This document shows, one piece after another, positions 6,818-58,690 of a stretch of DNA of 64,000 nucleotides (the first letter of the stretch is position 1; the number at the start of each line of letters is the position of its first letter). The notes below the pieces were generated by a model. That model had not been told where the DNA came from, did not search any database, and was given only the letters and a program-made list of their open reading frames with translations. Source of the stretch: Escallonia rubra (taxonomy: Eukaryota > Streptophyta > Magnoliopsida > Escalloniales > Escalloniaceae). The position numbers were made by a program, and so were the translations under genes. The DNA lies in contig JAVXUO010002817.1 in NCBI GenBank assembly GCA_033065855.1, positions 124,001 through 188,000 of the forward strand, in the 5' to 3' direction.

Positions 6818-7161
6818 TTTCCTCCATCCCACATAAATTGATCATATATATTTTTTTTTATTGTCCCGCAAAAATTGCTCACTCTCCAAATTAAGAAAGA
6901 TTTTGTAAGTATTTTTATATATTTACTATTTTTATATTTTTTTATTCTACTTCTTTCTCCACAAACTCATTTTTCTCTCGTGACCCACCTTCTTACATTA
7001 TTTTTACTATATTTCTCTCTCCACATTTAACATAACACTAATTCATTTTGTCTCTCATGGCTCAATTTCTTCCCTAAAATGGAAAACATAGAATATATGA
7101 CTAACATCCTTACTCTGCGTGCAGGAAAAAAAAAAGTGATCGAATTATGTGAGACAGAGAG
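6818..7161. mobile_element. Stowaway-like MITE (Tc1/Mariner)
   Basis: The left end reads TTTCCTCCATCCCACATAAA after a TA dinucleotide. The right end, read on the minus strand, is CTCTCTGTCTCACATAATTC, again bordered by TA at 7162-7163. These imperfect inverted ends of about 27 bases, the TA target duplication, the 344-bp length and the AT-rich non-coding interior fit a Stowaway-type miniature element. No open frame of note lies inside. Confidence 0.7.
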
Positions 7162-7163
7162 TA

Positions 7164-7860
7164 CACCATAAGATCGTTATAAGATAATTTCACACATTTC
7201 CTTTTAATCTTGGCTAGGGTTTTTCTTTATGAACTTGAGTTGCCATAGATCAACTGAAAAATACTATGTTACTCTCATTTATGCACAAATGAGATATATT
7301 TGTGACGCTTGAAAGTGAATTGACATCTGGTGCTCGCATGTTACTGCAGTTGGTTGAACTGAAGATGTAACTTTAAAGCATTAAATTCAATTGACGGATG
7401 AGTTGACAAAGTTTGTAGCCCGTTTTCACATGTATCGTATTTGAATGTACGCCAAAAGTGTGTTAGGAATATGTAAACCATTAGAATGTATTGTATGGTC
7501 TTAGTCATTCCAAAAACCGTTGGTCACGCCTACGATCATTCTTTGCTCTTCTATACCTTGCTTCTATCACATGAGTTGTCCTTGACCCACCGGCCAGCTC
7601 TTATATAATCGTAACTATAAAGGATCATTGCATAACTGTACGAGAATTCTCAACACCCCCCCCCCCCCCCTCCAAAACCCACCTCCCTCTTCTCTCCGGG
7701 GCACACTTTTATCATATATATCACTCCATATCGAAGAGTTCTAGACATTTTATGATAAATGGTCCGGGACTGTGCATAACTGCTCTTAGAACTTAGAGGC
7801 AAGTGATTTATTTGCATTTTAAACATAAGAGAAAATTTCAAATTTGCTAGCAATTAATGT
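7164..7860. other. Intergenic DNA, no gene seen
   Basis: AT-rich sequence between the MITE and the retroposed insertion. The only feature is a run of 15 C at 7656-7670. No coding signal is seen. Confidence 0.5.
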
Positions 7861-9716
7861 GCCACAACAACCCTTTTTTTTTCTAAGCAAATTTGATTAA
7901 AACACGTTACCCATTACAACCTAAGGCGATACCCAAACGGGTATTCCTGGAACAATTAAGACAACGCATCCAAACGGATGGTCTTGGAAAATGGCCCACG
8001 TGGCCTTGGAGGAAAGCACTGTAACTGTAAACATAAGGGCTACCCGTATCTGGGGTTACCAAATTAAGGGGTAGCCAGAGACGGGAAGATGCAATTTCTT
8101 GCATCATATCCCTAGCTCCCACCGAGACAGGGGAGAGAGCCATGGGCCGCTTTAGATGGCAGTTTACATTACTGCAGCGGTTTTCATCAGAGCTCCAACA
8201 GCTGAAGGAGGGTCCTCCCAAGGTCGGATCGAAACGATCCGCAGCTCGAAGAGAGTATGCATCCTCCAACTCTCGCAAATTCGGCATCTTCAAGCCACAA
8301 ATTCTCCATTTCTGATTAACATCGGATGAATCTAACCAAACCAACCGGATCAAAGATCTGGCAACGATGACGACAGATCTAAGAACAAATCTCAGATCTG
8401 AGGATTTCAGAAGGAGGGGGGAACCTTGAGGCCGAAGGAGGACCGATATGTGGGGGAATGGCTGATCGGCGCGAGGAAGTCGATGATGGGCGGCAGCGCG
8501 AGTCGGCAGAAATGGAGTGCCGAGGCAGCAGGAGAGGATGCCATATAGAGGAAGAAAAGGAGAAGGAGTGCAGGGAGTAGGGCTGTATACGAACCGAGTT
8601 CGAGCCGAACATGGGTGTGTTCGAACTCGGTTCGTATAATTTCAAGGGTGTTTGAGCTCGGCTCGTGTTCGTTTAGGAGCCAGACATGGGTGTTTGAACT
8701 CGGCTCGAGTTCGTCAACGCACAACTCAGGCTCGACTCGGCTCGTTCGTCTAAAGAGAGAAACTGAATCGACAATAAAAAAATGGCCAGAAAAATGACCG
8801 GAGAAGAAGATGAAGACGTATGGCCGAAAAAACAACCGAAGAAGAAGATGAAGACTTGGAGTCGTAAAATATCCCAGATCTGATCGGGGGATGCCAGATC
8901 TGTGTGGAGGAGCATCTGTGTTTGTAGGGCTTTGGCCTGACTTGGCAGAGGTCTAGCCGGCGATGTGGGCGATGATTTGGCTGGCGGTGTGCTTGTGTGA
9001 TGAGAGAGAGAGAGAGAGAGCAGAGGGTGTTCGACGACCGTTCGATCGTCTGAGAGAAGGCCGTAACGGGGGGATGATCTGGCGTGCAGCGTGGGCGGTG
9101 GTCTGGCCAGCGGTGTGGCCGGTGGTCTGGCCAGTGGTCTGGCCGGCGATGTGCCTGTATGATGACGACGAGTATTGGCCGGCGGTGTGGGTGTTTGTTG
9201 AGTCTGTGTCTAATGAGATGAAGAAAATGAACTTTGAGAGAAAGATAGAGGAAGCATGGGTGATCCACATGCTTCCACGTCTCAACAGTTTCAACATAAG
9301 TAGATATTTTTTATAGGTTTACAATATATATTATATTTTTTTAATGAATAAATGAACCGATGTTCGTTTATAATAAGGCTCGGCTCGTGTTCGGCTCGTT
9401 AAGTAAACGAGCCCTCTTGTTCACGAACATAAATAAACAAACATCATTATGTTAAAACTCGGCTCGTTTAATAAACGAGCCCTAAAATTGTGTTCGTGTT
9501 CGTTTCACTTATTATATGAACGAACATAAACGAGTTTTTGAGAGAACGAACATCGAGTTATTCGTGAACAACTATGTTCATTTACAGCCCTAGCAGGGAG
9601 GGCCTCCCCTTCCATCCTCATAGCCATGGAAGTTGAAGAGGAGGAAGGGGCGGCAGTAGAGTTTTCTGAAAGAAAGAGGCGGTAGAGAAAGGGTTTGACC
9701 GCCACAACAACCCTTT
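7861..9716 (-). mobile_element. Retroposed sequence with 16-bp target duplication
   Basis: The 16-mer GCCACAACAACCCTTT occurs at 7861-7876 and again at 9701-9716. Next to the left copy is a T run, which is a short poly(A) tail on the minus strand. Long direct repeats plus a terminal A tract are the signature of LINE-machinery insertion. Without the nested hAT element the insert is about 0.8 kb. On the minus strand it holds an open frame of 148 codons (8353-7907) and, further 5', another interrupted by the hAT. I recognise neither protein. It could be a processed pseudogene or a non-autonomous retroposon; the parent is unknown. Confidence 0.7.
8578..9592. mobile_element. Non-autonomous hAT element, 1015 bp
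   Basis: The ends are TAGGGCTGTA and, inverted, TACAGCCCTA. The 8-bp direct repeat GCAGGGAG flanks it at 8570-8577 and 9593-9600, the duplication size of the hAT superfamily. Subterminal DNA is full of short direct and inverted copies of CGAACNCGGCTCG-like motifs, as expected for transposase-binding sites. The interior has no transposase; it has GA-rich sequence and a short array of GGTGTGGCC/GGTCTGGCC repeats at 9090-9160. It is inserted in the retroposed sequence. Confidence 0.88.
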
Positions 9717-10445: not shown

Positions 10446-13400
10446 CTACATGTAGCTACTTAGCTCATGAAACAACTCCGCAGTTATTGGAGGGCAACTC
10501 TTCTTGGCCACAAACTTGTACTGATGCAGATAAAAAGAACACGTCAATACTCGTGAGATATAACTGGTACTTGCAAAAAAGGTACAAAGTATGAAAGATA
10601 CTTGAACTCTTGTACCCAATAAAAATAAACAACTGCATACTTGAGATTAATTAATTCAGTTAGATCCTTTCACAAGTATTTCAGTGATCAATCACGCTCG
10701 GTTTAAAGACCATATTACTGGAACTGTCAATTGAATGTTTCCAAGATCACCTAAAATGAATGTTATATAACAAGGCTCAAGCCCTGAAAATTTGTAGAGA
10801 ACTTAGAAAGCAGAAGCCGGAACAAGAACGGAAATAAGAAAGGCCTCTTTTGAGACAATTAGAAAACAAGTCAATAAATATTTTTTGGGTAACTAACAAG
10901 TGGACAAGTATTTGTTCCCATTTAGAGCCAATTTAACAAGGTTAGGTATTATTAGACACCAATCTATTTTACTATTCAACATCAGCTTTGTAATTTATAC
11001 GACAAAAGAAGTTTCATCTTACATTAGGTCTCAAACATCTCAATTGTCCTAAAAAGATTAAAAAAAAAAGAGCAAGTGTGTGTGTTGTGTGTGTAGAGAG
11101 AGAGAGAGAGAGTGGCATACATTGTGCTGACTGTATTTCTCCCTGATTGCAGGTAAACATAAACTTTGGCTGTTACAACACAGGCGATGTAGAGCCTTGA
11201 CGCAATCACCCAAGTCGGAGGCCATATAAAGGGTATGATGCTTCAAAGTCAAGGTCTATACCAAAACAAGCACAGGGTTAGAGTATAGGCCTTAGCAATA
11301 AACAATTATTTCCGGAATTATTACATACACTTACCCAAGGTCTTTCTGAAGGAAGAAGTATAAATTTTGCCAAAAGAGTTGCAGAAGCAGCAACCATAGA
11401 TGGGGCGTAACGAAGCATGCTGTAATCTAAAAGCGACAACTCCGCAAGATAGCTGGCGAGGAACTCCAATTGCATGGCTGGAACCTATAGTAGATATACG
11501 GACCAACGAAAATCAATCTTTGAGCAAAAACAACTAGGATACCTTTTGCCTGCCTGCATTTTTAAGCAAATTGATGCAGAAATATGAGCACTGTGTCTAA
11601 AATATGGGGACCACCACAAAGGCCTTAACATCATTACGGTTTATCTGGTATTGAATCTGATAACCTTAGTCACACCATTAAACGCATTCAACAAAATCTA
11701 ATCTTTAAAGCACTACTGATACTAAAGAAACTACTGCCAACGGCTCGACCACTACCATATCAAAGCCTAGAATTTTTTGACCTAAATCAAAGAATAGGCA
11801 AGATAGATACCTTATGAACTCGTTGAACAACCTGAACAAAGTGCCTGAACATTACATGAAAGCATCCAGTCAAAAAACATAAAAATATGAAAGGCAAACA
11901 GCAACTTAATTCAAAAACAGACCTCAGGAAACATATAGCAGTTGGTGCTGTCATCTCAAACCTCAAATAATTCAGCACAGCAGATTCCATCTCAAGGACC
12001 TATAGAAATTTTTTTAAGTGTTGGCAATACACAACGGAACTAGAAAAATCTAGCATCAGCAAGATCAAAGCAATGAACTAAACCCAACCTCATCCCTGGA
12101 GTATGTGTTATCAGTGATGTAACAGAACTCTTCCACGCGTGGTGCACAAATCTCCTCGTATTTACTGGCACCATCATTATATGTCTAGTTATTACGGTAC
12201 TTCTTAACGATCATCAATGTGCTTTTAACAAGAAGAAAATCTGTTTTTGCGTGCCTAAGAGAGAGAACTAAATAGTGTAAAGGGAAGAGGATGAACAATA
12301 AGGGGGAACGCTATTCTTACGCAGCAATCATCATGCACGCCACACCAAGCAACTGTAGTCGTTGCCTATTGATTGTATTTCCAGAGAGATAACGATCTAT
12401 GTAGTTAACAGCCAAAAACAATGTATCTGATACAAGCCTGTACTCTTCAGCAACCTACAGAAATAAAGAAACTTAGTAGCAGAAGTTGGTTGTGGAACTG
12501 GCGTACACCAGTAAAGGGATTACTATGAACCCACCCCATCCTCCCCCCCACCCCCACTCCCCACCACCCCTATCACATAAACTAGAGCAACGTTACCAAA
12601 ACTCAAGATTCCACAGTAGGGCCCGATTATAACAATATCGTGCAGGGATTGGTTATAACTTATGGAAGAATCTGTTATATCAGCTGTAAAAAAGAACACG
12701 TTGACAAAAGTTACTCATGTCATTGTCTTACCTCTACTAGCCAATCAATCAGTGTTGCGCGCATGCTGGCATTTATATCTTTCTGAATTCTCTCCATGAA
12801 ATCAGTAGAAGGCATCCTCTTTGTCTGCAAACAAGTCATTAAAAAAACGAGAACTAGCTATAAGCTATTACTAATAATACCATGAACACCTATATTTACC
12901 ACACTTCTATAACAAATTTTAGAATCCATTATGTAAGGTATCCTTGAACAGAAAAAAAACAGGTAGCCACATTCCCTTAGTAATAGGTTTCTGAATCATG
13001 TCCAGCCCGTTATAAAATTTCTAACAATTCAGTAATGGTCCATCACAATTATTCCAATTAGACAAGAAAACCTATGGAAGCAAATACAGTTGCAATTTCA
13101 TTATTTATATCAATCAAAGAGCATTCAGAAGTTTTTTCAACACGTATTCCTACATACAAAAAAACCATCTATTATCTTACAATCCGATATGTGCGATTTT
13201 ATATATCGAGAGTTAAACGTGTGTCATTTGGGCATATAAACTACTGAAACTACAAGAGTAGATCTTCTGAGAAATGCAGGCTGGTACTCCAAAAAAGCTT
13301 CCAATGGAACATCATCGGTTGCGTTACCGGATGTAGGAGCTAAACAATAATATAAATAACATTATAAGGAACTTTTTAACCCTTTCAATGTTATGAAATG

Positions 13401-20565: not shown

Positions 20566-20805
20566 TTGAGCAGGAAAAACAACCGCTACAATTCGTTGCG
20601 GTTTGTTTTGGGGGGGCCGAAAGTAATGATGGGGGGGGGGGCACCTAAAAAGGGGGGGGGGGGGAACAACCGCAACAAATTGTTGCGGTTTGTTTTGGGG
20701 GGGGAAGGACATCAGGGGGTGGGGGGAAAAGGACAACACAGCAAGCAACCGCAACAATTTGATGTGGTTGGGTGGATAATTCCCACCGGTGGGTGAGGAT
20801 CGGCC

Positions 20806-20808
<3 letters not shown>
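20566..20808. repeat. G-run block with AACCGCAACAA palindromes
   Basis: G runs of 7, 11, 13 and 8 bases at 20610-20616, 20631-20641, 20652-20664 and 20697-20704 fit a G-quadruplex pattern. Between them lies a near-perfect palindrome with arms AACCGCAACAA and TTGTTGCGGTT. The block ends in GGATCGGCCCCC against the TA tract. Read inverted, this is GGGGGCCGATCC, nearly the same as the first bases of the Mutator-like element on the other side of that tract. Confidence 0.7.

Positions 20809-20856
<48 letters not shown>
20809..20856. repeat. (TA)n microsatellite, left flank of the Mutator-like element
   Basis: Forty-eight bases of pure TA repeat end exactly at the first base of the left terminal inverted repeat. 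A 9-bp duplication ATATATATA is compatible with both flanks but cannot be separated from the microsatellite. Confidence 0.9.
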
Positions 20857-20859
<3 letters not shown>

Positions 20860-21113
20860 AGCCGATCCCTTGACAGCGCTGGCAAAATAGGACATCTTGC
20901 CAGCGCGATCTGGCCGTCCATCCCGAAGGGATGGACGGCCCAGATCACTTTTTTTTGCGGCGCTGTCAGTCGTCCGCTATATAGTGTAGCGGACGGACCT
21001 TTTTACCATCTTGCCCTCGCTCACCCGTCCGCTAGACTGTGTAGCGGACGACATTCTTGGGCCCACATCGTCCGACAAAAAGTAGTCCGCCACACTGTCT
21101 AGCGGACGACTGT
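20857..21113 (+). repeat. Left terminal inverted repeat
   Basis: About 257 bases match the right end in inverted orientation. Contents in order: a hairpin GCGCTGGCAA/TTGCCAGCGC, a 13-bp perfect hairpin GGCCGTCCATCCC/GGGATGGACGGCC, a T run, and three copies of the 23-bp inverted repeat at 20972, 21027 and 21085. A fourth copy lies just inside at 21182-21204. Confidence 0.92.
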
Positions 21114-21717
21114 CACAACTGCACAATTCTGACACAATTGTGACTTGTCTGACACAGTTGTGACTTGTTGTCGGCAATGCTGTCCGCTACACAGTATAGC
21201 GGACAGTATTGCCCATCCCCAAAACCTACTCAATTTTCTTTCAGCACAATTTTCTTCTCCTTCGGACTCGCTTCCATTTTCAGCTGCCTTCAAGCTTCGA
21301 GTAACACTTGCTTCAAGTTTCGCTCAAGCAAGGTAAGTTTGCTTCAAGTTTTCTTGATGTTCTAGAAATTTGTCACTGTATTCATCAATTTGTGATTTTA
21401 TACTCTAGATTTTTTGTGATGTTCTAGACATGATGTTCATCAAAAAGGTATAATTTGTTAACTTTATATTTAATTCATTATAGTTTAATTCGATTTTTTG
21501 GCATGATGAATTCGTCTATTTATCTTACTAATTTAAATTTGTTATGTTCAATAAATTAATAATTGTTAATTTGGAGACACTTTTGAGATTATGCATACCG
21601 TATGTTTGTCATCCTAAATTGGTCTATTCGCCAAGGTAATTTTTAGGTAATATTTTCAGTTAGAAATGCCATTTGATTGTTAAGCGTAGTCTATTTCTAC
21701 ACAGCTCTTGTTTCACA

Positions 21718-24015
21718 ATGTCTGATTTCGTGTCAAGCTCTAACGTCCCCGTAGATGCTAGTGATACGTATCTAGGACGAACATTTGCTACGTTGGAAGA
21801 AGCTGAAGAATGTTTTCGAGCGTATTCATTGAGGGTTGATTTTGGCATTAGAATAAAGACTTCAAGAACGAGCACCATAACGAGAAAGATATGCTCTCGC
21901 TTATACGAGTGCCATAGGAGTAGAAACCCAGTGCAAAATGAGACACGCGTAGGCAATGATGACAGTGATGACGAAATAGGATATCCGCGTAGAAGACGGG
22001 ACTGCTTTGAGCGCACAAATTGCCAGGTCAAGATGTTCGTAAGCTACAAACCCAAACAAGACCATTGGCTTATTACCAGCCTGGAACTGGCACACAATCA
22101 CCCGTTAGTAACTCCTTCTAAGGTGAGTCAGATGCATCAACACAAGAAGATGGGTAAGGTCGCAAGGAGCCTGATTCAAACAATGAGCAATGCGCGACTA
22201 GGACCTGCCGACATGATTAATGTTCTTGCTGAACAGGCTGGGGGAATTCAAAATTTGACCTTTAACACGACAGACGTTCGTAACGCGGTCCGAACCCATA
22301 GACGAGCCGCGTATGACCTCAATGATGCTCAAGCCACAATGAGCCTATTGAAACGGATGCAGATGGAGGACCCGCAGTTGACCTTCGATTATAAACTTGA
22401 CGATGAGCATCGAGTTAGCACAATTTTTTGGGTCGACGGTCGTTCGAGGCTTGCTTATAAGCATTTTGGGGATGTCGTGATGTTCGACACCACATACCGT
22501 ACCAACAAGTACTCGATGCCGTTCGCCCCTTTCACGGGGGTCAATCATCATTATCACTCCATCATGTTCGGGTTCGCCTTGTTAAGGGACGAGACCGAGA
22601 GTTCTTTTGAATGGTTGTTTAGGACGTGGCTGGAAGCAATGAACTTCAAAGCACCCAAAGTGATCATCACCGGTCAAGATTTGGCAATGAAGAAGGCTAT
22701 TGTGACTGTCTTCCCAGACACTCGGCACAACTTGTGCACCTGGCACATAAGCAACAAATATCCGGAACGGCTGCATCACGTGTACGCAAAGTATCCAGAC
22801 TTTAAACAGGATTTTGACAAGTGCGTCCTCAAGTCGTTAACGATTGAGGAATTCGAGGAGAGGTGGGAAAAGCTTGTTCGGGATTACTCATTGCAAGACA
22901 ACGAGTGGCTCCAGCACTTGTTCGAGCGCAAAGAGCAATGGATTGGCGTTTACACGAGGAGGTATTTTTCAGCGGGCATGAAAACGACGGGCATGAGTGA
23001 ATCCATGAATGCCACGTTCGATAGTTATGTGGGTACAGCTACCAATTTGAAGACTTTCGTTGCATCCGCACAAAAAGCGGTAGCTTCGTTGTTCGTAAAA
23101 GAAAGGGCTGCCGACTTTGCAACAACGTACAAACAAAGGAGAAGGTTGCTCGAGACCCCGCTGGAGCTGAACGGTGCCAAAGTCTATACGAAGGAGATCT
23201 TCTTGCTATACCAAGTAGAGCTGCGAAAATCCGGATGATACAGTATAAACAAGGTGGCAGAAATGTCTACGCGTGAGTACAAGGTTTATTCGCTCGTGAA
23301 TGACCTCGTCCCTGAGAAGCTGCGCAGAATGTATACGGTGAGCCACGACACATTGACGGACTCGGTGACATGTGTTTGCAAGAAGTTTGAGTTCCATGGC
23401 ATCCTGTGTAGACACGTTCTGCGGTTTTTCACCCAGAACAATATCAGGACAATCCCCGATAAATACGTCTTGCCACGGTGGACGAAAGGTGCAAACAGGT
23501 TGCACGGTACCATTTCCTTTCCGGAGCACCCGTATACTGACTTTGAAGAATCAGAGACGTTGCGGTATAATCATCTGGTGACGATGTTCACCCGTTTGTC
23601 CGTAAAGGGTGCTGCTACAATGGTCGGTTATAAACATCTCCTCGAGGTAGCTCAGCAACAAGAGCCCATCGTCGACCAGTTGGAAGTAGCTTCAGTCACC
23701 AATGCGATTGACACCGAGCCTACGACGGGGGTATCAGAAGATGACGAGCCGGAGGAGGAAGACGACAATGATATCCGTTTGTTGGATCCAATTATATCGC
23801 AAACGAAAGGCCGCAAGAGATCTACGCGGATGAAAAGCTTTATTGAAACGGCAACTCAACCTAAAAAGCTGTGAAGGTGTGCATTGTGCAACAAAATGAC
23901 CGACCACGACAAGCGGAACCATTACAAGGCACTGGGGATAAGTTCAGGGGGTTTGCAAGACGGGGAAGAAGGTGACGCCGAAGATGAGGACGAACAAGCT
24001 GCAGTGGACCTTTAA
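21718..24015 (+). pseudogene. FAR1/MULE/SWIM transposase, two in-frame TGA codons
   Basis: One frame from ATG 21718 to TAA 24013-24015 spans 765 codons, interrupted by TGA at 23236 (codon 507) and 23872 (codon 719), with no frameshift. Domains in order: FAR1 DNA-binding domain (about 18-132, with paired Cys and a C-terminal AHNHP motif), MULE transposase domain (about 240-345) with candidate DDE residues Asp (codon at 22486), Asp in TGQDLAM (22678) and Glu in GMSESMN (22999) and a CTWH motif, then a SWIM zinc finger CVC-X9-CRH (23371-23415). The part after the second TGA carries CALC and a KRNHY stretch, like the zinc-knuckle tail of FAR1 proteins. Start choice: the frame opens further upstream without ATG. 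A leader intron is possible from the AAGGTAAGT near 21330. Both TGAs are consistent with single C-to-T changes (inference). Confidence 0.9.
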
Positions 24016-24167
24016 TTTTTTGTACAACTTTATGACATTTCTAATAATTTTCGGAGGGATAATTTTTCGACCGAATACTGGAATTTTTTAAAAATGGACC
24101 TATGAGAGGCCATCGAATCAAATCTAAAGTCTTTATTTCAATTTTTTTTTTTTTTTTTGTAAGCCCC

Positions 24168-24404
24168 GTCCGCTATACAATGTAGCGGACGTCATCGACT
24201 TTTGGTCTTTTACGTCCGTTATATTGTATAGCGGACGGCATCGCAGTAAAACTTTTGGTCTTCTTTTACGTCCGCTATACAATGTAGCGGACGTCATAGC
24301 AGGCAAACTTTTGGTCTTCTTTAATGTCCGCTATACAATATAGCGGACGTCATCGCAGTAAAACTTTTGGTCTTCTTTTACGTCCGCTATACAATGTAGC
24401 GGAG
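24168..24404. repeat. Array 1 of the 23-bp inverted repeat (5 units)
   Basis: Units start at 24168, 24214, 24270, 24326 and 24382; the last four are exactly 56 bases apart. Each is GTCCGCTA, a 7-base spacer (mostly TACAATG) and TAGCGGAC. The second unit carries the spacer in reverse complement; the last has lost its final base match. The units are separated by a common linker containing ACTTTTGGTCTTC. The array lies between the transposase and the B3 gene. Confidence 0.92.
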
Positions 24405-24584
24405 AACTCTATCCTATGATATATATTAATCATATCGGGCAATCGGCTGTTATCAGTCCTATCTGGAGGGCACTCTCTCTGTCTCGAACATCTAGCCCAG
24501 GCCACTACTCCATCTCCGGCGACCCACATCTCCGGTGACCCACAACTCCGGCGATAAACCGTCCCCCCCTCAACGCCGACCTCG

Positions 24585-25073
24585 ATGGCTTCTGGATCGG
24601 AGACCACCTACGATTTTATTGGCAACTTGCACCTGGCAGGCAAACACTTTTTCAAAGTCATGATGCCGGGGTTTGAGAATGAACTTGTATGCCATCCCTC
24701 TTTCTCTGTATTTTCGTGTGTTAAAGGTTTGATCTTTTGGTTAAAAACTAACCTATTTTTTGTGTATTGTGTTTGTTAGGACATACCGGAAGCCTTGACC
24801 AATCAATTTACAACAATTCATGAGAGTGCAAGATTATATAGCCGCAAGGGGGCATGGCAGGTTGAAATCAAGCTGAAGCCCGGCCGACCCCAAAAAAAGC
24901 AATTCGCAGAGGGTTGGAACGTCTTCGTGCGCCAGCATGGCCTCGAACTCGGGGACTTTGTAGTGTTTGAACACCTTGGGTGGTGGGATTTTCAAGTTGT
25001 AATCTTTGATCAGAGCACTTGTGAAAAATTTCTTTCCCCCAATGTGAACCCTAATTTATTATTAATAAAATAA
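24585..25073 (+). CDS. B3 DNA-binding domain protein, two exons
   Basis: Exons 24585-24686 and 24780-25073 join in phase 0 across a 93-bp intron (GTATGC...TTAG) to give 131 residues. Almost the whole protein is one B3 domain: KHFFKVMMPGF at about 20-30, DIPEAL directly after the intron, WQVEIKL, FAEGWNVFVRQHGLELGDF and VVIFDQSTCEKF near the end. This is the REM-like pattern of plant B3 proteins, which bind DNA in the nucleus. The reading frame is undamaged, unlike the other two genes of the element. It sits between the two inverted-repeat arrays. It could be a captured host gene or an element-borne regulator; the sequence does not decide. The ATG is the first in frame and precedes the domain closely. 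Confidence 0.85.
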
Positions 25074-25205
25074 TTTGTGTTCTTGTTGATTGTGTTTCGA
25101 AATTTTTCCTCGCTTAATTGTGCTTAATTGTGTCGTTTGAGATTCCATCGATATATTGAGATCGTTGATTGTGAATCGTACGTTAATTGCAGAAACTGAT
25201 TTTAC

Positions 25206-26128
25206 GTCCGCCATAAAATGTAGCGGACGGCATAGCAGAAACTGATTTTACGTCCGCTATACAATGTAGCGGACGGCGCAGCAGAAACTCCACCCATCAA
25301 CACTTAGAAATATTTGGTCTTCATTTTACGTCCGCTATACAATGTAGCGGACGGCGCAGCAGAAACTCCACCCATCAACACTTAGAAATATTTGGTCTTC
25401 AATTTACGTCCGCCATACAATGTAGCGGACGGCATAGCAGAAACTTTGGTCTTCATTTTACGTCCGCCATACAATGTAGCGGACGGCGCAGCAGAAACTC
25501 CACCCATCAACACTTAGAAAAATTTGGTCTCCATTTTACGTCCGCCATACAATGTAGCGGACGGCGCAGCAGAAACTCCACCAAAATATTTGGTCTTCAA
25601 TTTACGTCCGCCATACAATGTAGCGGATGGCATAGCAGAAACTTTGGTCTTCATTTTACGTCCGCCATACAATGTAGCAGACGGCGCAGCAGAAAGCTCC
25701 ACCCATCAACACTTAGAAATATTTGGTCTTCATTTTACGTCCGCTATACAATGTAGCGGACGGCGCAGCAGAAACTCCACCCATCAACACTTAGAAAAAT
25801 TTGGTCTTCATTTTACGTTCGCCATACAATGTAGCGGACGGCGCAACAGAAACTCCACCCATCAACACTTAGAAATATTTGGTCTTCAATTTACGTCCGC
25901 CATACAATGTAGCGGACGGCATAGCAGAAACTTTGGTCTTCATTTTACGTCCGCTATACAATGTAGCAGACGGTGCAGCAGAAAGCTCCACCCATCAACA
26001 CTTAGAAATATTTGGTCTTCATTTTACGACCGCTATATTGTATAGCGGACGGCGCAGCGGAAAGCTCCACCCATCAACACTTAGAAAAATTCTCTACCTA
26101 CATTAGTCCGCTACATTGTATAGCGGAC
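25206..26128. repeat. Array 2 of the 23-bp inverted repeat (14 units)
   Basis: Units start at 25206, 25252, 25330, 25408, 25462, 25540, 25606, 25660, 25739, 25817, 25895, 25949, 26028 and 26106. Spacing is mostly 78-79 or 54 bases, the short spacing lacking a CTCCACCCATCAACACTTAG segment. The last two units carry the spacer in the opposite orientation. Open frames across the array follow the repeat and are not taken as genes. Confidence 0.93.
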
Positions 26129-26410
26129 GGCACAGCAGAAAGACTAAAGTTCACTACTTACAAAATTTTGCACCATTTCGTTTTCTACATTTCAATCATT
26201 CCCAATGAGGCCAAAAAACCAACAACTGAAATCAATCAATCAGTAATCGACAACAGAAATCAACACAAAACAAATCACACCAATGAATCACGGTTTATGT
26301 AAAAAATACTGTTATGATACAAATCAAATCACACCAATGAATCACGGATTCTCGTCATAAGCTGGATTTTCTATAAACCTAACCGCTCTAGGCCGGCCTT
26401 TCATAATTTG
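26129..26410. other. Short AT-rich spacer with a 22-bp direct repeat
   Basis: This lies between array 2 and the 3' end of the PMD-protease gene. A direct repeat containing AAATCACACCAATGAATCAC occurs near 26271 and 26326. It probably includes the 3' untranslated region of the minus-strand gene. Confidence 0.5.
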
Positions 26411-29400
26411 CTAAGCTATTCTATATCTATAGGCTTCAACTTCCGCTTGGCTCCAGACGGCCGCCTTGAGGCTCTCAGAGCGACAAATGAAATCCATGTA
26501 CATGCAAAGGAAGACGCCACAGTCCGAAGTGTTACGTTGCTTGGGCCTCCTTTTCTTCAATCGCCTATCGAGATTTGGCCGCGTCGGTACGGGGTCACCA
26601 CGGGCACAATTGACCATTGCACAAAAAATATTCTGCGGGAAACAGAAAATGGCGTAAGACACGAGTTAAAATTTATGGCAAGATAGAATCAGAGCATTAT
26701 ACAGCGATCGTAATATTACCAATGAGTCCAACTGGGCTCTGTACATCTGCAGCACAGGCATATCGAGAGTATCGTCGTGGAGACTGTCGATCACCGATAC
26801 GACTTTACTTGTTGGGGCGTAGCAAACCAAGTACCAGTGGCTTTCCCCTAGAAATGGGATTAGAAACACATCGGCAACACTTGCGCTCACCGGACTATCC
26901 CTATTAAGATACGCTCGTAGGTTAGCGGACGGTCTCCAATGGGCCAACTTTTTCTTCCCCCTATGTTCGACCCACTCCCGCCATTCAGACACTAGGATGC
27001 TATGAAAAAAGGCATCCACCAAAAAAACGGCCGGATAGGTCGGCTGCTGCCGACACCTTTCCTTCAGAATCTCCACGTAGGTGGAGACGACACCGTTGTC
27101 TAACCAACTCCCCGGAGCCAGGGAGGCCATTTCTCCCCACGAGCAACTGTAATCCATGCCCTCCGGATGATCCACACTATACGACGCGTTGTCATGCCGG
27201 TAGCCGCTAAAATAACGCTCTCTGATTATCTGGCATTTATGCGGCTTTAGGGGCTTCAACGGATGCCCTTTGCGATATTGCCCTCGGGGGTCGACCGGGG
27301 GATATTGCACTCCTTCGGGGGGATCGACTGGGGGATATTGCACTCCTTCGGGGGGGTCAATGGGGGGGTATTGCCCGCCTTCGGCAATAGATGGTCCTGC
27401 CCACGGGACAATGGGCAGTGTCTCGAACAGATTGATGTTTTCGAAACCCCAGTCTTGCGTGACTTGACTCTGAGAGAGGGGTTGGGGTTCCGAATCCAAT
27501 AGCAAAGAGAAGGAGGGCGCATTGTAATCTTCCCACGGCGCTTGAGCCTGGCCCATGGTGCTTGGCGATCCCCAATCACCACCCATTTCCTGTACAGAGG
27601 GAAAACCATATCCCTGGCTCACTCCCGAAGTCTGTCCCGAGGGATCGGTGCATCCCTCGGGAACAAACGGCCGCTGCCACCCCGGATAACCCATTCCCGG
27701 GATGACGCCCGAAGGCCGTCCCGATGCTTACCGCAAAAAATTCCCGCAGCCATACGCCAACGCTTCAGCCTGTTGGCGAAGCTCCTCGCCCATGGCATCC
27801 ACCAAATCCTTCCGCTCGCTCAACTTCTGGAAGAAGGCGAACAAGGCATTAACCTACATCCAGAGAGATAATAAATAAGTAACTTCGTACACACTTAGAA
27901 TGATCAAAGTTCAATTAGAAGCACTGGTTGGGCAACTTACCAGATTGTATGCCATGTGCTCATCGATCTGACCCCTAGGGTGGTACTTCTCCCCGCGTTC
28001 AAACCTTACTGGAGCTACTCTCCTCCGGGTGATGCGGTAGTACCACTCATTGTACTGTTCGATGCTGATGACGGGGTCAGGCTCCGACACAATGGTCGCC
28101 AGCGTGTCCTGCCAGGAATTCCAGACCTCAATTTCACGCGCGCACAAGTCGTGCGCATTCGCCCTGCCAAACAGTCCGACACCCGGTGGGTTCCTGTTAA
28201 GCCTCATATCTGGCGCGCCGGCTGGCAACCCCTGCAGGCAGTCAAAATGGCACATAGCGCGATCTGGCAGCTGCCACTCTGCGACCTCGAAGTGGATCAG
28301 GGGTGTGCGTTGCAACCCGGAGAGCGTGAAGACGAACGACTCTCCCACCCGTCGCGCCAAACATTTGTACGGTGCCCATCGCATCTGGCCAGGAGATAAC
28401 GAGTCGAGCTCCCCCCGATAGTATGAAATGTTGTGATGGGGATCGTCTCTCCTCTCGTAGTGGGTTTCCTTCCGGCTGTACTCCCAGGCGCACAACCGAG
28501 GCCACACATTATCTGTTCCGTCCCTACGCCTGGGTGCGCCGGTAGCAAGGTGTTCATAAGACCACACCTGAGAGCAAAGACATTAAATAAAGTATCGTCA
28601 ACATTTATTGTCCATTCAACAAAAAAAACAACAACAAAGAGCACGTAATGAAGAATTGTATGATATACCTGCAATAGCGAGAGACATGCACATATCGCTT
28701 TGGAGTCGGGCCTCGTTGCCTTGTGCAATGCTCGGTACAGGTATGCAAGAGTTGCTGCACCCCAGGCATAATCCCCAACCTCAGCCAGGTTACGCAAAAA
28801 CGGTAAATATTTGACGCTGACCGTGTTCTTCGACGTCGTTGGGAATAATATTGCCCCCATCACCCACCAGAGGAAGGCTTGTGTGTACAGCACAAGGTCA
28901 TGGCCCGTATAGTTTTCTGGCAAAACCCCGTAGGTATCTACCAACCACTTCAACTTGATACCACCACTGCTAAATCCATCCTGGGGTATCGAAGTAAAGA
29001 AGTCCCTAGCGGTCCTCTTATTCGTTGCTTCGGACGGATGAGCTATTACCGGCCGCCCCGTCACCGGTAACCCTAAGATGAACCCTACATCTTCTAGGGT
29101 AATTGTCATCTCTCCGAGAGGGAAGTGAAACGTATTCGTTTCACTTCTCCACCTTTCAACAAGGGCACCTATTAAGTGCCGGTCAAGTTGTTGAAAGATC
29201 TGCCCATGCGTGAAAATCCCAAACCCAATCCCACGCAGTAATCTTTTCTGGGTTTTGTTCAATTTCCAGGCGTTGAAATTATCGCTTACTTCTACCGTAT
29301 TGACAAGTGCTCTTTCCTACGAATTAATAAATATTATTTAAGCAAAATAAACGATATACAACGGTCGCAACTGAAATACGTAAGCAAAATAAACGATATA

Positions 29401-29506
29401 AACGATAAAATAAGTATCTTACTCCACCATCCCATATGAGCGTACTGATATGGTTTGCTTGGTCGTATAATACGGACGAATCTTCTGGTCCAGGGTTGAA
29501 ATCCAT
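26411..29506 (-). pseudogene. Plant mobile domain fused to Ulp1-type cysteine protease
   Basis: Five exons fit GT-AG borders in one phase: 29506-29423, 29316-28669, 28567-27941, 27853-26720 and 26632-26411, 904 codons. A single TAA at 27730-27728 (codon 495) breaks the frame, unless an extra intron beginning at the overlapping GTAAGC removes it. Residues 1-453 are a plant mobile domain (PF10536 type: RLLRGIGFG, ITLEDVGFILGLPV, LLQVWSYEHLA). A Pro/Gln-rich linker with PPEGVQYPPVD repeats follows. The C-terminus is a C48 protease with His in GESHWYLV, Asp in VIDSLHDD, Gln in PKQRN and Cys in SDCGVF, the last two in the final exon. Ulp1 enzymes cut SUMO-type modifiers; that activity here is inferred. 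It is convergent to the B3 gene. Confidence 0.85.
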
Positions 29507-29987
29507 TTTTTGCAACTGAAATAATGGAAAGAGGGCAAGGTTGGAAGCGTAAACATTCCCAAACATACAACGCTAGCATATTCAGCGCTAGCATGTGATC
29601 AGATAATACGCAATACACATATATAATATATATGTATATACATTGACAAACGCTAGCATAGTGCCGATCTACTTGCCAACGCCGCAAGATGAACTCTAGA
29701 TTATGAACAAAGAAAGGATTAGTTTGTGAACTTACGTGATTGATGAGACGATTAAAGGATTTCTTGCAAAGAAATTGCGCCGATCTACTTGCCAACGCCG
29801 CTGGTTTGATCGTGAGAAGAAGGAATAGTTTGATTGTGAGAAGAAGGAATTAATAGAAGTTTAGAAGGTTTCGAATACTTGCCAACGTCCGCTACACTGT
29901 GTTGCGGACGCTGGGATAACGACAAAGTAACAGTCGTGCATCGACTGATGTGACAACTGTCAGGGGGAAGTGGGTGGTTTGACGGAA
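29507..29987 (-). other. Leader region of the PMD-protease gene
   Basis: It holds two copies of a 23-base direct repeat (29663-29685 and 29779-29801) and a third partial copy that runs into an isolated unit of the 23-bp inverted repeat at 29887-29909. Three CGCTAGCAT motifs occur near 29575-29655. It presumably holds the minus-strand promoter, but no TATA box is assigned. Confidence 0.5.
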
Positions 29988-30228
29988 ACAGTCGTCCGCT
30001 AGACAGTGTAGCGGACTACTTTTTGTTGGACGATGTGGGCCCAAGAATGTCGTCCGCTATACAGTCTAGCGGACGGGTGAGCGAGGGCAAGATGGTAAAA
30101 AGGTCCGTCCGCTACACTATATAGCGGACGACTGACAGCGCCGCAAAAAAAAGTGATCTGGGCCGAATGGACGCCAGATCGCGCTGGCAAGATGTCCTAT
30201 TTTGTCAGCGCTGTCAATGGATCAGCTC

Positions 30229-30230
<2 letters not shown>
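29988..30230 (-). repeat. Right terminal inverted repeat
   Basis: About 243 bases mirror the left end, with three 23-bp inverted repeats at 29994, 30052 and 30107. It lacks about 14 bases of the GGCCGTCCATCCC hairpin that is complete in the left TIR. It ends exactly at the (TA)n tract. Confidence 0.92.

Positions 30231-30299
<69 letters not shown>
30231..30299. repeat. (TA)n microsatellite, right flank of the Mutator-like element
   Basis: Sixty-nine bases of pure AT repeat start at the outer base of the right TIR. Together with the left tract this shows insertion within a microsatellite. Confidence 0.9.
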
Positions 30300-36517: not shown

Positions 36518-39500
36518 TAGGGATGGCAATAGGGCGGGTCGGATGTGGATCTTCTAACATACGTACCCGCCCTGCTAATCATTGAATTTTGCCCCGCCCC
36601 GCACCGGGTTATGTATTTAAAATACCATAACCGATCCTATGTGGATTTAGGAACCCCGAACCCGCCTCGTTCCGCCCCGCCCTCGCTGTAGCACGCCAAA
36701 TTGGTTTTGCAAATATTTCACTCTCTTTAAACATGTATTATTGTTACACCAAAACTTGCACCTGTGTCACAAAAAATAAACTATACACATCATATTAATG
36801 TCTAAAAATCCTAAAGAAGACATTGATAAGTTACAACATAGTTCAAAATAAATTACAACATAGTTCAAATTAATGTTCAAATAGACTACACAATAGTTGA
36901 CAGTTCAAATATATTACACCACATTAACGTTCAATCACTTGGAAGCAGCAAATAGGATTATAAGTGCAGCAAGTAACAAATATGAATATAAAAGAAAGCT
37001 CGTTCAGTTGGTCCGCATTCCAACTCCAAATACAACTGCAGTCACTGTTCACTGAAAAAATACTAGGAAAAAATGACTTTAAATAAATGGATACAAAAAA
37101 GTAAAATTAAATTGAAATACAATTTACATAAGGAATCATACATCTGTAACACATGAGTTGTCATCGTCATTGTCATCATTAATCGTTGCATATCCCTTGT
37201 GTGCTAGATTAGATACACCTACAACACCATAGTACAAATTTACAAGTACACGTGAAAATTCAAAGTATTGTCAAATTTAACTCCATGAATAAAATAATAG
37301 AATGAGTTTACCTTTCATTTCAGCAGCCCACAACCAGTCTTGAGCACGCATTAACGTTTCTAGTGTCTTTGGATGATGCTTATTCCGGTGAGGACTCACT
37401 AACCTACCATTTGTGCTAAAACGCCTCCAATGCGACTATAGATATGAGAATAGCAAGAATATCCTTAGCCATCAGCTGTAATGTTGGGTATTTCAATCCA
37501 TTAGTCCTCCACCACGCCAAAATATCAAAGTCCAAAAACCTAGGCAACACATCATCATCGAGATAATGATCCAACTCAGATTTCACTATAGTCTTTCTCT
37601 TCTTCTTGACATGTTCATCGAAACCTTTAAAAGAATCTAGACATCCCACCTCAACACGCTCTTGCGAGCGAACAGATGAACCAATACGAGTATCATGATC
37701 ACTAGCCTCTCTATTTTGGTACTCACGAAGAAGTCTATAACAAAGTGATGACACCTTTTTAGTTTCTCCCGCTTCTCCCGACCCGTAAATCTGACTATAA
37801 TAATACTGAATCAACTCCATTTTGTACCTAGGATCCAACACTACAGCAACCGCCATGATTCCATGAATATCCAACCAATATTTATTGAACTTCTTAAGCA
37901 TTTGCTCAGCCATACTTCTAATCACCGCACTTGAGCTCATGAGCCACTCACCTAACACCATTTTAATCTCACAAATTTTAGGAAAAAACAAGTTAGCAGT
38001 AGGATACTTTGTGCCTGAAAACATCTATGTTGTTTCATAAAACAACTCAACTTGTCACATATCTCTCTTGCAAAAGTCCACTCTTCTTCACTTGGGCAAG
38101 TTTTATATTGAGACTCCCGTTGGTACAAGCGAAAAAAAACATCTTTATACACAAATGCAGTTTCAAGCATCAAAAAAGTTGAGTTTCATCTTGTAGGGCA
38201 ATCAAGTGCCAACTTTTTGGTGCTTGAAATACGCAATTGACAAGCAGTCTCTTCAAATTTCTCATCTATCTTTGGCGTTGCCCTCCAAAAAGCCACTCTC
38301 TCTAACTTTTTCAATTCCCTCCTTTTCACAGTTAACCCATCTTTAACAATCAAATTCAACACATGTGCCATACAGCGCATATGAATCAATTCACCAAACA
38401 ACAATAGAGAATTAGAATCCAACTTAAGCAACATGTCATCAATCATCGCATCATTCGTACTACAATTGTCAACCGTAATTGTACATAATTTTCTATCAAT
38501 GTTCCAATCAAGCAATGTTTGAGACAAAGCATCACAAATAACTTCACTAGTGTGTGGACATGGCAAATATAAGAACCTAAAAAGGATAAAGTTAACAATT
38601 ATTATGCGAAAGTAGGAAAATAATTAGATTGTAAAATACCAAAATTGCAAAAAAGTAAAGCATACCTCAAAATGCGAATTTGAAGAATGAACTGTTCATC
38701 GATAAAATGTCCTGTGACAGCCATTAAACCCTTCTTTTGATTACCAGAAGTCCACAAATCAGTAGTGACAACAATCCTACTTCTTATCCCCTCCAACAGC
38801 TTCATCACTTGCTCCCTCTCATGTTCATAGATTTTTATAATGTCGATCTTCACTGTGTTCCGGGTTGGTATCTTAAACAATGGCTGAAGTGCAGACGAAT
38901 ACCTCTTGAACACCATGTGGTCAACAATAGATAACGGGTATTCATGCAAAATTATCATGTTTCCAAGTTCTCTCCTGGCAAAATCTTGATCATCAAAGGT
39001 ATAATTACCTAGTTCGGGCTTAGCATTTGCTTTACCCATTATCCCAGTCAAGAGTTTCTATCTAACATCCGGTTGCCTTAGACGTTTACATATGTCTAAG
39101 TGCATACGCAGGTGAGTACTCTTATTTTTTGGGTTTGCCCCAAGGGTTTTCCCACAGTGAATACATGTTGTTGTCACGTTTACTCCATTTTTTTTCCTTT
39201 CAAAGTGTGTCTACACACTACGTTTCAAGTTCTCGTTGTTTAACTCATCAGGGCCACTGTCAAGGTCAACTGGTTCAGAACCAGAGACTCCCATGCTTGC
39301 ATTTGGTGTTGATGGCTAAGAAGTTTGATCCTTTAATGTAGCTCTAGGGGTTTGCACCGGAGATGATGCAATGGGAGAAGATGTAATTTCATTGGAAGAC
39401 ATGATTTTATCTAAATATTCATTTAAACAAAAAAGAATGATTTTCAAGAAAATCAAAAGAATAATACCTACTCCGAAATAATACCAAATTCAAGTTACAG

Positions 39501-49782: not shown

Positions 49783-52700
49783 ATGTCTCAAACTCCCACA
49801 CCACCGGCTCAGCAAGGTGGGGCAACTCCACCAATTTTACCCTTGCCACCAATCTATGATCCACTTCGTGGGGGAGCTGCATCTTCATCCTCTAGTCGCG
49901 GAAAAAAGGTCGCAACAGCTACTACCGTAGCACAAGCCACCACAGTTGCAGCACCTGTAATTCCTGCAGTAGTATCGGATGCCGTCACGACAACGTCAAC
50001 ACCCGTAACGGTAACTCCGCCCGCTGTGACAATCGCTCCTCCCTCCGTAAACATTGTCCTTCCTCCGCTCCAAGCTGTCAACGTATCCGCACCTACCACA
50101 GCGTTACCAGTCATGAGCAGCCAAGCCAACTTGATGGCCATTCTTCGGGCTATGCAACAGTCCATCGAATGGTTACAAGCCGCTGTGCGCAATCCACCTC
50201 CGCAATCAGAACCTCTCCAACCTCCAAACGAGCAACATGTAACTGGTACGCGGAGGCAGTCGGTTAAACACTGATTGAATTTCCATGAAGAACCAGGAAC
50301 CTCAAAAACTCCGGAGCGAATACAAGTAGAAGATGGTCCATCTGACGATGAACGGCGAAACCCGAGATCTAGGAGACAAGAAGAAAGCTCTTATGAAGCT
50401 CATTCTACCAGGAGGGACTCTTATTATAACCCTGGTAAGCATCGTGCCAAACGATACACCATCGCCCCAGTCATCGTTGCACGACCATTCACAGAAGAGG
50501 TTGATCACTTTCCTACGTCGCAGAGCTTCAAGATGCCTCCATGTGAATCATACGATGGCACTGGAGACCCAATGGAGCACTTAGCTCGTTTCACTTCTGG
50601 CATGAACCTGCACTTAGTCCCTGATCAAATTATGTGCCGAGCATTCCCGGTAACCCTGAAAGGAGCTGCGCACGTATGGTTTCAACATCTCGCACCCCGC
50701 TCTATCTCCTGTTGGGCCCAGTTGGCAGAATCCTTCCGCAACAACTTCTTAACAAGTCGGATACAAAGGAAAAAATCTTCGGCCCTTTTCCGTATCGTTC
50801 AAGGACCCAAGGAGTCCTTGAAATCCTACTACGCTCGCTTCAACTCCGAAAAACTCCTCATCGACCACTTAGATCCAGGAGTAACGTTTGCAGCAATGGC
50901 TAGAGGAGTGAGACCAAGCACACCCTTACGTTTCTCGTTAAACAAGCGTTCGCCAGAAAACATGTCGGACCTCCTTAACAGGGTGGAAAAGTATCTTCGG
51001 GCCAAAGAAGATTCAACAACCTCGCAGCACGAAGAAGCGCACACTGGACACAAAAGACAAGATCATCCTGAATGGGGAAATCCAAACGAAGCCAAACGCT
51101 CGAGAGCAACGCTCCCCAAGTCATTTACCCCACTCAATACTTCTCGGGGGCACATCCTAAACCAGATCAGGAGCCAAAGCATCCTCAAATGGCCAAAACC
51201 TATGAGAGGACCGGCCGAAAAGAGAGACTCCCAACTATATTGTCACTTCCATAAAGATCACGGGCATACAACCGATGAATGCAAGGTGCTTCAGCGAGAG
51301 ATTGAAAATCTCATAGCCAAAGGGCATCTCAAACAATTCATCAAAGCCAATGATCGACAACAAAATGGAAGAAGAAATCAGTGGATAACAGAGGAGACGT
51401 TGCCGAAGGATCCCCCAGTGATAAACACCATTTCCGGAGGACCGAGCGCTGGAGGATTGTCTAGCTCTTCCCGAAAGGCCTATGCTCGGCAAGTTAATTT
51501 AACGCAAGGACCAGTCAAGCGGCCGAGAGCATCCACCTCTTTGGAGTTCAACGACGCAGATCTCGACGGAATAAGCCTGCCGCACGATGATGCTCTAGTC
51601 ATCACTCTGCGCATAGATGCTTTCCAAGTTAAGCGCATCTTGGTCGACACAGGAAGTTCAGCCGATATTATATTCGAAGATGCATTCAATCAGATGGGGA
51701 TTTCTGACGATAGGATAAAGCCAATATCTTCTCCTTTATATGGCTTTACAGGTGCCTCTGCTCCAGTGAGAAGAATCGCTTCTCTCACTGTCATCGTTGG
51801 GGAAGCACCTCGACAGGCAGTACATACACTTGATTTCCTCATTGCCAAGGTCAAGTCGTCGTATAATGAGATTTTGGGCCGCACAGGCCTTAACAAGCTA
51901 CAAGCAGTAGCTTCAACCTACCACCTTGTCATGAAATTCCCCACCCCAGTAGGGATTGGCTTCGTAAAAGGCGATCAGACCCTTGCTCGAAGGTGCTACG
52001 TAGCCTCTTGCAGAGCTGAAGAGACCCTGTCGATCGATGATCAGCGCGATGAGAAGGCACTAAGGCGCGCAGAGCCTGTAGAAGCTCTTATCTCTATACC
52101 ACTCATAGAATGAGATAATGAACGACAAGTACGGATTGGCTCTATGCTAGAGCTAACAATTTGAGAACGATTAATCTTCTTCCTTCGATCCAACATGGAC
52201 ATCTTCGCGTGGAGTGCGGCAGACATGCCAGGTATAGACCCATCCGTGATCACACATCGACTTTCAGCCAATCCCGCGTGCAAACCCGTTAAGCAGAAGA
52301 AGCGACCCTTCGCACCGAAGCGGCAAGTGGTAATCAAGAAGGAAGTTGATAAACTCCTAGATGCTGGCTTCATCCACGAAATAGACTACCCCGACTGGGT
52401 AGCCAACGTCGTCATCGTGCCAAAGGGCGGAACGGGCAAGTAGAGGATTTATATCGACTACACCGATCTGAACAGAGCCTGCCCGAAAGATAGTTACCCG
52501 CTGACGCGCATCGACACGCTGATTGATGCCACGTCAGGTCATCAACTACTCAGCTTCATGGATGCATTCTCTGGCTACAACCAGATTCGCATGCACGAAG
52601 ACGACATAGCCAAGACAGCTTTCGTCACAGATCAAGGCATGTTCTGCTATAAGGTCATGCCCTTCGGATTAAAGAATGCGGGCGCTACTTACCAAAGGTT

Positions 52701-57828: not shown

Positions 57829-58012
57829 AATTTTAGATCAAAACAAGATATCTCAAAAGAAAATTTGAAAACAAGTTTGAAGGTTACTTGGAGAAGAAGA
57901 ACCTTCGAACTCTTTGGAAATTCTCCTTTGAACAAAGCCTCCAAGTAACCTCACCCTCTCTCAACAACACTTTGAAGAAATGAGAAGTTGTGAAAAGGTA
58001 AAAGGTTTCCCC

Positions 58013-58198: not shown

Positions 58199-58690
58199 GC
58201 ATTGGACTGTACGCCTCTACTCGGCCGAGTAGAGGCGTGCTCGGCCACGCCGAGTAGACGAGCACGTTGGCACGCCTCTACTCGGCCAGGCCGAGTAGAC
58301 GAGCACGTTGGCACGCCTCTACTCGGCCAGGCCGAGTAGACGAGCACGTTGCACGCCTCTACTCGGCCAGGCCGAGTAGACGAGCACGTTGGCACGCCTC
58401 TACTCGGCCAGGCCGAGTAGGCGAGCACGTTGGCACGCCTCTACTCAGCCAGGCCGAGTAGACAGCCACGTTGGCACGCCTCGAGTAGACGAATTCCATG
58501 AGGCCTCTACTCAGCTTGGCCGAGTAGAAGAGCCCTTGATGCATCTCTACTCGGACAAGCCGAGTAGACGAACTCTTGATGCGTCTCTACTCTCTACTCA
58601 GCCAAGCCAAGTAGATGAATTCCATGAGGTCTCTACTCAGCCAAGTCGAGTAGATGAACCTGTGATGCACTTCTACTCGGCCAAAACCTA
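58199..58690. repeat. About 41-bp tandem array with palindromic units
   Basis: Each unit contains CTACTCGGCC-A-GGCCGAGTAG, a 10-bp-arm palindrome, followed by ACGAGCACGTTGGCACGCCT. Five or six central units are nearly identical and the outer ones diverge (GATGAATTCCATGAGG variants). It lies between the antisense promoter and the polypurine tract. Open frames here follow the repeat and are not genes. Confidence 0.9.

Follow-up and report, generated by a model that had tools for sequence, protein, structure and literature searches.

A Mutator-like element family of Escallonia rubra with an optional B3 gene inside a palindrome array

Introduction

The window analysed here, a stretch of 64,000 nucleotides from Escallonia rubra (assembly GCA_033065855.1, contig JAVXUO010002817.1, positions 124,001 to 188,000, forward strand), contains a Mutator-like element (MULE). 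Its terminal inverted repeats (TIRs) enclose, from left to right, a transposase gene, a first array of short palindromes, a B3 gene, a second palindrome array and, in the opposite orientation, a gene for a plant mobile domain (PMD) and a C48 protease domain, here called PMD-C48. An earlier note, made from the letters of the window alone, had described matching TIRs of about 250 bases, three recognisable genes with an intact B3 among them, and arrays of a TIR-like motif. It had regarded the three genes as a set, had suggested that the element may regulate itself and had proposed a search of the host genome for other copies. Here, we report that the element belongs to a large family in which B3 is an optional cassette inside the palindrome array, lost in one clear case by deletion in the flanking repeats. 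We also compare B3 between two subfamilies, weigh what the accessory genes and arrays may do, and set the element beside known plant MULEs.

Results

Structure of the element

The features of the element are listed in Table 1. Over their whole length the two TIRs match at 92%, with 95% in the outer arms (20857–20914/30173–30230) and 98% in the inner arms (20936–21113/29988–30165), so that the description of matching repeats was accurate. The domains of all three genes were also found (FAR1, MULE and SWIM; B3; PMD and C48), but two of the genes are no longer whole: the window copy is decayed, with its transposase and PMD-C48 broken and its B3 open.

Table 1. Features of the element, with positions counted from the first letter of the window.
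Feature	Position	Strand	Remarks
(TA)24 microsatellite, left end (target)	20809–20856		
Element	20857–30230		9,374 bp; MULE
Left TIR	20857–21113	+	257 bp; palindromes at 20972, 21027, 21085
Transposase gene (FAR1-MULE-SWIM)	21718–24015	+	765 codons in L050; stops at 23236–23238 and 23872–23874 in the window
Palindrome array 1	24165–24403		GTCCGC-n-GCGGAC units, spacing 46–56 bp
B3 exon 1	24585–24686	+	34 codons; predicted GT-AG intron follows
B3 exon 2 with stop	24780–25073	+	131-residue product in the window
Palindrome array 2	25201–26142		spacing 46–79 bp
PMD-C48 exons 4–5, with Ulp1/C48 protease domain	26340–27853	-	stops at 27728–27730 and 26411–26413 in the window; lower bound approximate
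PMD-C48 exons 1–3, with plant mobile domain	27941–29506	-	29506–29423, 29316–28669, 28567–27941
Right TIR	29988–30230	-	243 bp
(AT)n microsatellite, right end	30231–30299		

Both ends lie directly against a TA microsatellite. Among the 21 copies read, the window included, the left flank is TA-rich in 19, in some of them short or interrupted; it is very short in L037 and absent in L039. L039, a full-length, B3-bearing copy outside TA repeats, carries an exact 9-bp target duplication, TTGTTTAAT, within the 8–11 bp of the Mutator superfamily. It is the only one of the 21 copies with such a duplication, which would be unrecognisable in the TA-flanked copies, that of the window included. The element is thus a MULE, and its length from TIR to TIR is 8.1–9.6 kb in the 14 copies measured. 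As a separate observation, the sequence GGATCGGCCCCC precedes the left microsatellite (window 20780–20832) and is similar to the terminus of a different TA-targeting element (the present element's own end is GGATCAGCTCCC), as in the clustered SaTar elements.

The copy family and its transposase

The search covered the 566 Mb host genome, in which the window lies on contig C1436 (C and L numbers below are our labels for contigs and for copies or loci). An exact transposase marker was found at 887 sites, against none for the reversed-pattern control, a B3 exon-1 marker at 488 sites and a PMD marker at 416. The proposed search therefore yielded a family, and neither B3 nor PMD is a later insertion into one copy; for B3, an insertion private to the window copy is ruled out. 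Of 4,060 candidate transposase matches, 85 were scored; all of these are 97–100% identical, and 73 have listed frames of 782–783 residues, 3 of the 73 being also listed with stops. Thirty TIR loci were read, the best by similarity of 40 scored among 2,339 candidates; 21 adjoin a transposase and nine adjoin PMD sequence, and L008 and L018, both transposase-adjoining, overlap at one end.

The MULE domain (PF10551) of the transposase was recognised with an E value of 3e-31 in the window and 3.7e-33 in L050. The window transposase carries two in-frame stops and, in its ITDQD motif, a G where all 20 other copies read have D; the missing aspartate is presumably a catalytic residue. These 20 copies were chosen by similarity to the window transposase, and the measures of transposase intactness and of the ratio of nonsynonymous to synonymous change (N/S) are therefore biased: a full-length frame in 17 of the 21 copies, extended in L038 and truncated in L046, L048 and the window, with an N/S proxy of 0.30. 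Eighteen copies are readable to the right end, the exceptions being L031 and L047, which run into N, and L038, which meets a contig end. One of the 18, L043 (C33:81093+ and 83773-), is rearranged, with two convergent transposases 2.7 kb apart, left-type ends on both outer sides and no PMD-C48. A relative with a similar TIR (L025:1899–2871) lies across a TA/CA microsatellite and contains a fragment of a DYW-deaminase (PPR) gene (PF14432, E 3.1e-37).

Palindrome arrays

The arrays of a TIR-like motif proposed earlier are real: the element holds 30 palindromes of the form GTCCGC-n-GCGGAC with at most two mismatches, against 0–5 in each of 50 dinucleotide shuffles, and copies stand in both TIRs as well. 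Exact 6+11+6 palindromes number 20 in the element and none in the rest of the window, where three occur if two mismatches are allowed. All 17 copies in which palindromes were counted have an array. A further TIR relative, L013:1–1403 on the minus strand, carries palindromes and a minisatellite around GGCAGCTCCGCTTCCGGCGACG.

That the number of units varies freely among copies is what would be expected if the arrays were neutral minisatellites, spread by slippage from TIR sequence and without a binding role. We consider this account improbable, as the units have kept a recognisable palindrome core despite changes in the spacers that separate them (the arrays of L049, L041 and L035, and the first array of the window) and no copy counted lacks an array.

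B3 as an optional cassette

The B3 product has 125 residues in six of the nine complete genes and 131 in three, the window among them. In the spliced L050 protein, PF02362 is matched over profile positions 1–100 of 101 (E 1.9e-9), a full-length B3 domain, whereas sequence matches in the PDB are weak, the best being VRN1 at E 0.029. One protein relative was found, in Escallonia herrerae (among two candidates, by a search that sees only proteins sharing exact five-residue words). The gene is indeed intact: its reading frame is open in the window and in the eight other complete copies read. In a wider set of exon-2 matches (150 scored of 1,602 candidates), 101, counted by eye, share one score.

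Across the 21 copies B3 is complete in nine, a remnant in L033 and absent from 11; among those readable to the right end the figures are seven, one and ten. Fixation of B3 in the family is thereby ruled out, and the earlier view of the three genes as a fixed set falls: full-length copies without B3 exist, even though B3 is not peculiar to the window. Exact markers give a similar picture. Within the first 100 listed transposase markers (contigs C17–C525, or C745), where diverged copies count as absent and absence lumps truncated copies, contig ends and diverged markers, 25 are accompanied by both B3 and PMD, 14 by B3 only, 14 by PMD only and 47 by neither, so that B3 is present in 25 of the 39 copies in which transposase and PMD are linked. 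B3 lies 2.9–3.3 kb downstream in at least 19 of the 85 scored transposases, among the B3 matches listed.

In all nine B3-bearing copies read, the gene sits between array units, together with about 180 bp upstream and about 70–130 bp downstream, and this unit behaves as a cassette. Unit 3 of array 1 is joined straight to a unit of array 2 in L041, which lacks B3, and its sister L049 has B3 (support 99/96); the junction and the B3-bearing sister together indicate loss of B3 by deletion. Another loss is seen in L033: array 1 and the upstream part are still there, but of B3 itself only the end of exon 2 is left. Across the family as a whole, the transposase tree, in which 4 of 18 inner branches are starred, does not settle the order of B3 gain and loss.

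Of 75 B3 markers, 36 are without an exact transposase marker. Among the 27 sites on both exon lists, the transposase marker is missing from all 15 sites with a shorter B3 intron, against 3 of 11 with a longer one; one site has an odd spacing. We considered that such sites represent elements without a transposase, and this was rejected in part: upstream of the shorter-intron B3 on C63 lies a transposase 3' end, 95% identical and in frame, and on C25, C26 and C372 a sibling transposase (see below) stands at the expected distance from B3, which together account for 4 of the 36.

Two subfamilies and the divergence of B3

Beside the L002 element lies a sibling element, on C2824, with its left end near 6912. 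Its transposase and B3 were read as two pieces, 7860–8385 and 10700–11300, and not across the gap between them. Over the first 525 nt its transposase differs from those of five copies by about 7% (34–41 positions). Sibling transposases are 99–100% alike (40 scored of 1,231 candidates), and B3 stands 2.9–3.2 kb downstream of at least 19 of the 40, or of 10 of the 14 on contigs up to C745, the reach of the B3 marker list. The synonymous divergence (dS) of the transposase between the subfamilies is 0.12–0.16 at the 5' end (C2824) and 0.08–0.09 at the 3' end (C63).

The coding sequence of B3 is nearly identical between the subfamilies. With C2824 or C63 set against L039, L044 and L050, it shows no synonymous and one or two nonsynonymous changes, with up to two more nonsynonymous changes in L046, L047 and L049. 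In L038 there are three synonymous and 8–9 nonsynonymous changes, an excess that probably comes in part from its frameshifted tail. Set against the transposase, this near identity makes the B3 cassette look younger than the split of the subfamilies, or exchanged since. The B3 intron, in contrast, differs at 4–5 of 91 positions in the comparison with L039, L044 and L050, and the flanks, depending on the alignment, at 1–15 positions in about 55 bp downstream and 3–21 in 53–80 bp upstream. The exons thus look more conserved than the intron between subfamilies. Among the nine complete copies, 11 of 397 coding columns are variable, against 35 of 334 noncoding columns, with 2 and 55 gap columns, respectively.

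Since the synonymous sites are unchanged, constraint on the protein is insufficient alone; since the intron has diverged, so is exchange. We think that both act on B3, which has probably been exchanged between the subfamilies.

The PMD-C48 gene

PMD-C48 is present in 17 of the 18 copies readable to the right end, the exception being the rearranged L043. It has five exons, whose GT-AG boundaries are retained in 16 of the 17, with one changed acceptor in L037. The window frame ends at residue 494, ahead of the C48 domain. In L050 splicing gives an uninterrupted frame of 938 residues that takes in both the PMD (71–420) and the C48 domain (707–908), and the two are therefore parts of one protein. 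Its C48 domain matches SENP2 (E 1.2e-11), with HW, D and DCG aligned at the positions of the His-Asp-Cys triad, which we take to be the catalytic residues. No C48 relative at E ≤ 0.001 was found among 793 candidates in a search that sees only proteins sharing exact five-residue words. Close protein relatives of B3 and PMD were found only in E. herrerae and E. rubra, and the best PMD matches outside Escallonia are MAIN-LIKE 2 proteins; judged by this likeness, a MULE-borne PMD in a eudicot may represent a further capture.

Other features of the window

Outside the element, gag and pol frames of a Gypsy-type long terminal repeat retrotransposon lie at 50275–55119 and 57310–57837, with a Transposase_28 frame in the opposite orientation. 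A hAT transposase fragment lies at 37419–38024 (minus strand) and a 41-bp minisatellite of six copies at 58240–58482.

Discussion

The explanation that we favour, and to which we give about an even chance of being right as a whole, is that the element belongs to a MULE family that inserts into TA microsatellites, was recently very active and has a transposase of the Jittery type. In the copies read, its core consists of the TIRs, the FAR1-MULE-SWIM transposase and an antisense PMD-C48 gene converging on the array, with B3 as an option; the arrays would form a regulatory platform in the manner of VANC. On this explanation the transposase would cut at the TIRs, recognising the palindromes there, and the internal arrays would offer a binding platform to proteins of the element, B3, PMD-C48 or both. 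Once bound, these might modulate host silencing or the expression of the element, as VANC does on VANDAL arrays. The self-regulation suggested in the earlier note would take this form.

Several observations weigh against the explanation, or against the part of it that concerns the accessory genes. Many otherwise complete elements lack B3, and the 47 of 100 listed transposase markers mentioned above have neither accessory marker. The arrays are of about equal size with B3 (mean 16.7 palindromes, seven copies) and without it (15.4, ten copies), so B3 is not their sole possible reader. Among the 150 exon-2 rows, four (C3065, C142, C2538 and C1546:144950) have a stop other than the usual terminal TAA. 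Compared with the intron alone, the B3 exons of the nine copies are not significantly less variable (11 of 397 against 6 of 93, p = 0.11); their 10 nonsynonymous and 4 synonymous changes give an N/S proxy of 0.64, not confidently below 1 (p = 0.50), and synonymous conservation fits recent exchange as well as it fits protein constraint. Of the 17 copies of PMD-C48, one (L050) has a frame open throughout and 16 are broken, with a relaxed N/S proxy of 0.69–0.82, from which it follows that most copies of the element may not need the gene, and the PMD marker is found downstream of only 39 of the 100 listed transposase markers.

Some of these points are what would be expected if B3 were a passenger, a captured host gene hitch-hiking on the MULE as in Pack-MULEs and without a role in the element. 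Its absence from ten of the 18 readable copies agrees with this, as does L025, whose host DYW-deaminase fragment shows that capture happens in such elements, and the N/S proxy of B3 does not clearly point to constraint. A passenger would nevertheless have to be a complete spliced gene, open in nine of nine copies, with less variation than the noncoding sequence around it as a whole, present in two subfamilies and, by eye, of uniform score in two-thirds of the exon-2 matches (101/150); we regard this account as doubtful.

The same doubt attaches to a second alternative, in which PMD-C48 is the anti-silencing factor, comparable to VANC or KIU, the transposase reads the palindromes and B3 is incidental. 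PMD-C48 is the constant partner (17 of 18 copies), and palindromes occur in the TIRs and arrays are kept in copies without B3. Published excerpts (here and below, the cited articles are drawn on in part) describe VANC as binding short motifs in tandem arrays and removing methylation (PMC5735166, PMC10398659), report Ulp1 in some VANC genes (PMC13317346) and propose an anti-silencing role for captured PMD (PMC5418596). The broken frames, the relaxed N/S and the limited marker linkage of PMD-C48 speak against it, and at E ≤ 1 there is no Pfam match to DUF1985, a VANC domain, in the B3, transposase or PMD-C48 proteins of L050.

Within the explanation that we favour, a more specific role for B3 can be imagined, although we think it unlikely, slightly more so than either of these two alternatives. 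B3 might be an exchangeable specificity cassette that moves between subfamilies by way of the palindrome repeats and supplies the receiving element with a sequence-specific regulator that acts on all copies with palindromes, either as an anti-silencer or as an activator.

Comparison with known systems

TA targeting, antisense PMD genes and Ulp1 in MULEs are each already published, and the statement that FAR1-type transposases, Ulp1-like proteases and PMDs occur in plant MULEs agrees with that record. Among the open-licence papers listed in our literature searches we found no report of a B3 gene in a MULE or of PMD-C48 beside a FAR1-type transposase; the matches to 'B3 domain' (PMC11536578, PMC13032165, PMC9274236, PMC5700690) are, by title only, mapping or transcriptome studies.

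The closest likeness, by domains and TIR length, is to Jittery group 36 (PMC6446971), which shares the N-terminal FAR1, the C-terminal SWIM and long TIRs (39–292 bp), although FAR1 is listed there also for half of one group-35 sub-group and a few others. There are distinguishable differences. Table 1 of that article gives the plant Jittery sub-group one open reading frame (ORF) and no PMD, whereas the Escallonia element has two further genes, PMD-C48 in 17 of 18 copies and B3 in part of them. MuTAnT of Medicago (PMC4486113) is alike in its TA-repeat flanks, long TIRs and Jittery-like transposase, but AutoMuTAnT is described there with a single ORF. SaTar/AgS-MULE elements (PMC5907723) resemble the family in microsatellite insertion and clustering, with some copies outside having ordinary target duplications, of 10 bp rather than the 9 bp of L039; in the portion of that article consulted, without a search aimed at them, a B3, PMD or Ulp1 gene did not come up.

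A PMD gene, in many cases antisense to the transposase, is shared with groups 42 and 47–50 (PMC6446971) and with the PMD-C captures (PMC5418596). In the excerpts of these sources, PMD MULEs belong to other transposase groups, none being listed for Jittery (PMC6446971), or carry PMD-transposase fusions in grasses and Amborella, whereas the Escallonia element pairs PMD-C48 with a transposase of the FAR1 type. Host genes also include fusions of PMD with a protease, and the PMD-C of eudicots is described as mainly genic (PMC7156037).

VANDAL and Kaonashi elements, with VANC and KIU, are alike in having an accessory gene and variable noncoding arrays of tandem motifs; Ulp1 occurs in MULEs and in KIU (PMC2528002, PMC13317346), where it lies opposite to the transposase (PMC2528002). 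They are described as non-TIR elements with DUF1985, whereas the Escallonia element has long TIRs, PMD, B3 and palindromes common to its TIRs and arrays. Among plant transposons, management of an element's own silencing is known chiefly from VANDAL. The Escallonia family belongs to another MULE lineage and has hundreds of similar copies; it combines a PMD-protease with motif arrays and with an optional accessory gene, B3, that behaves as a cassette within repeats. With natural copies bearing and lacking B3, and two subfamilies, in one genome, the roles of its accessory genes are directly testable.

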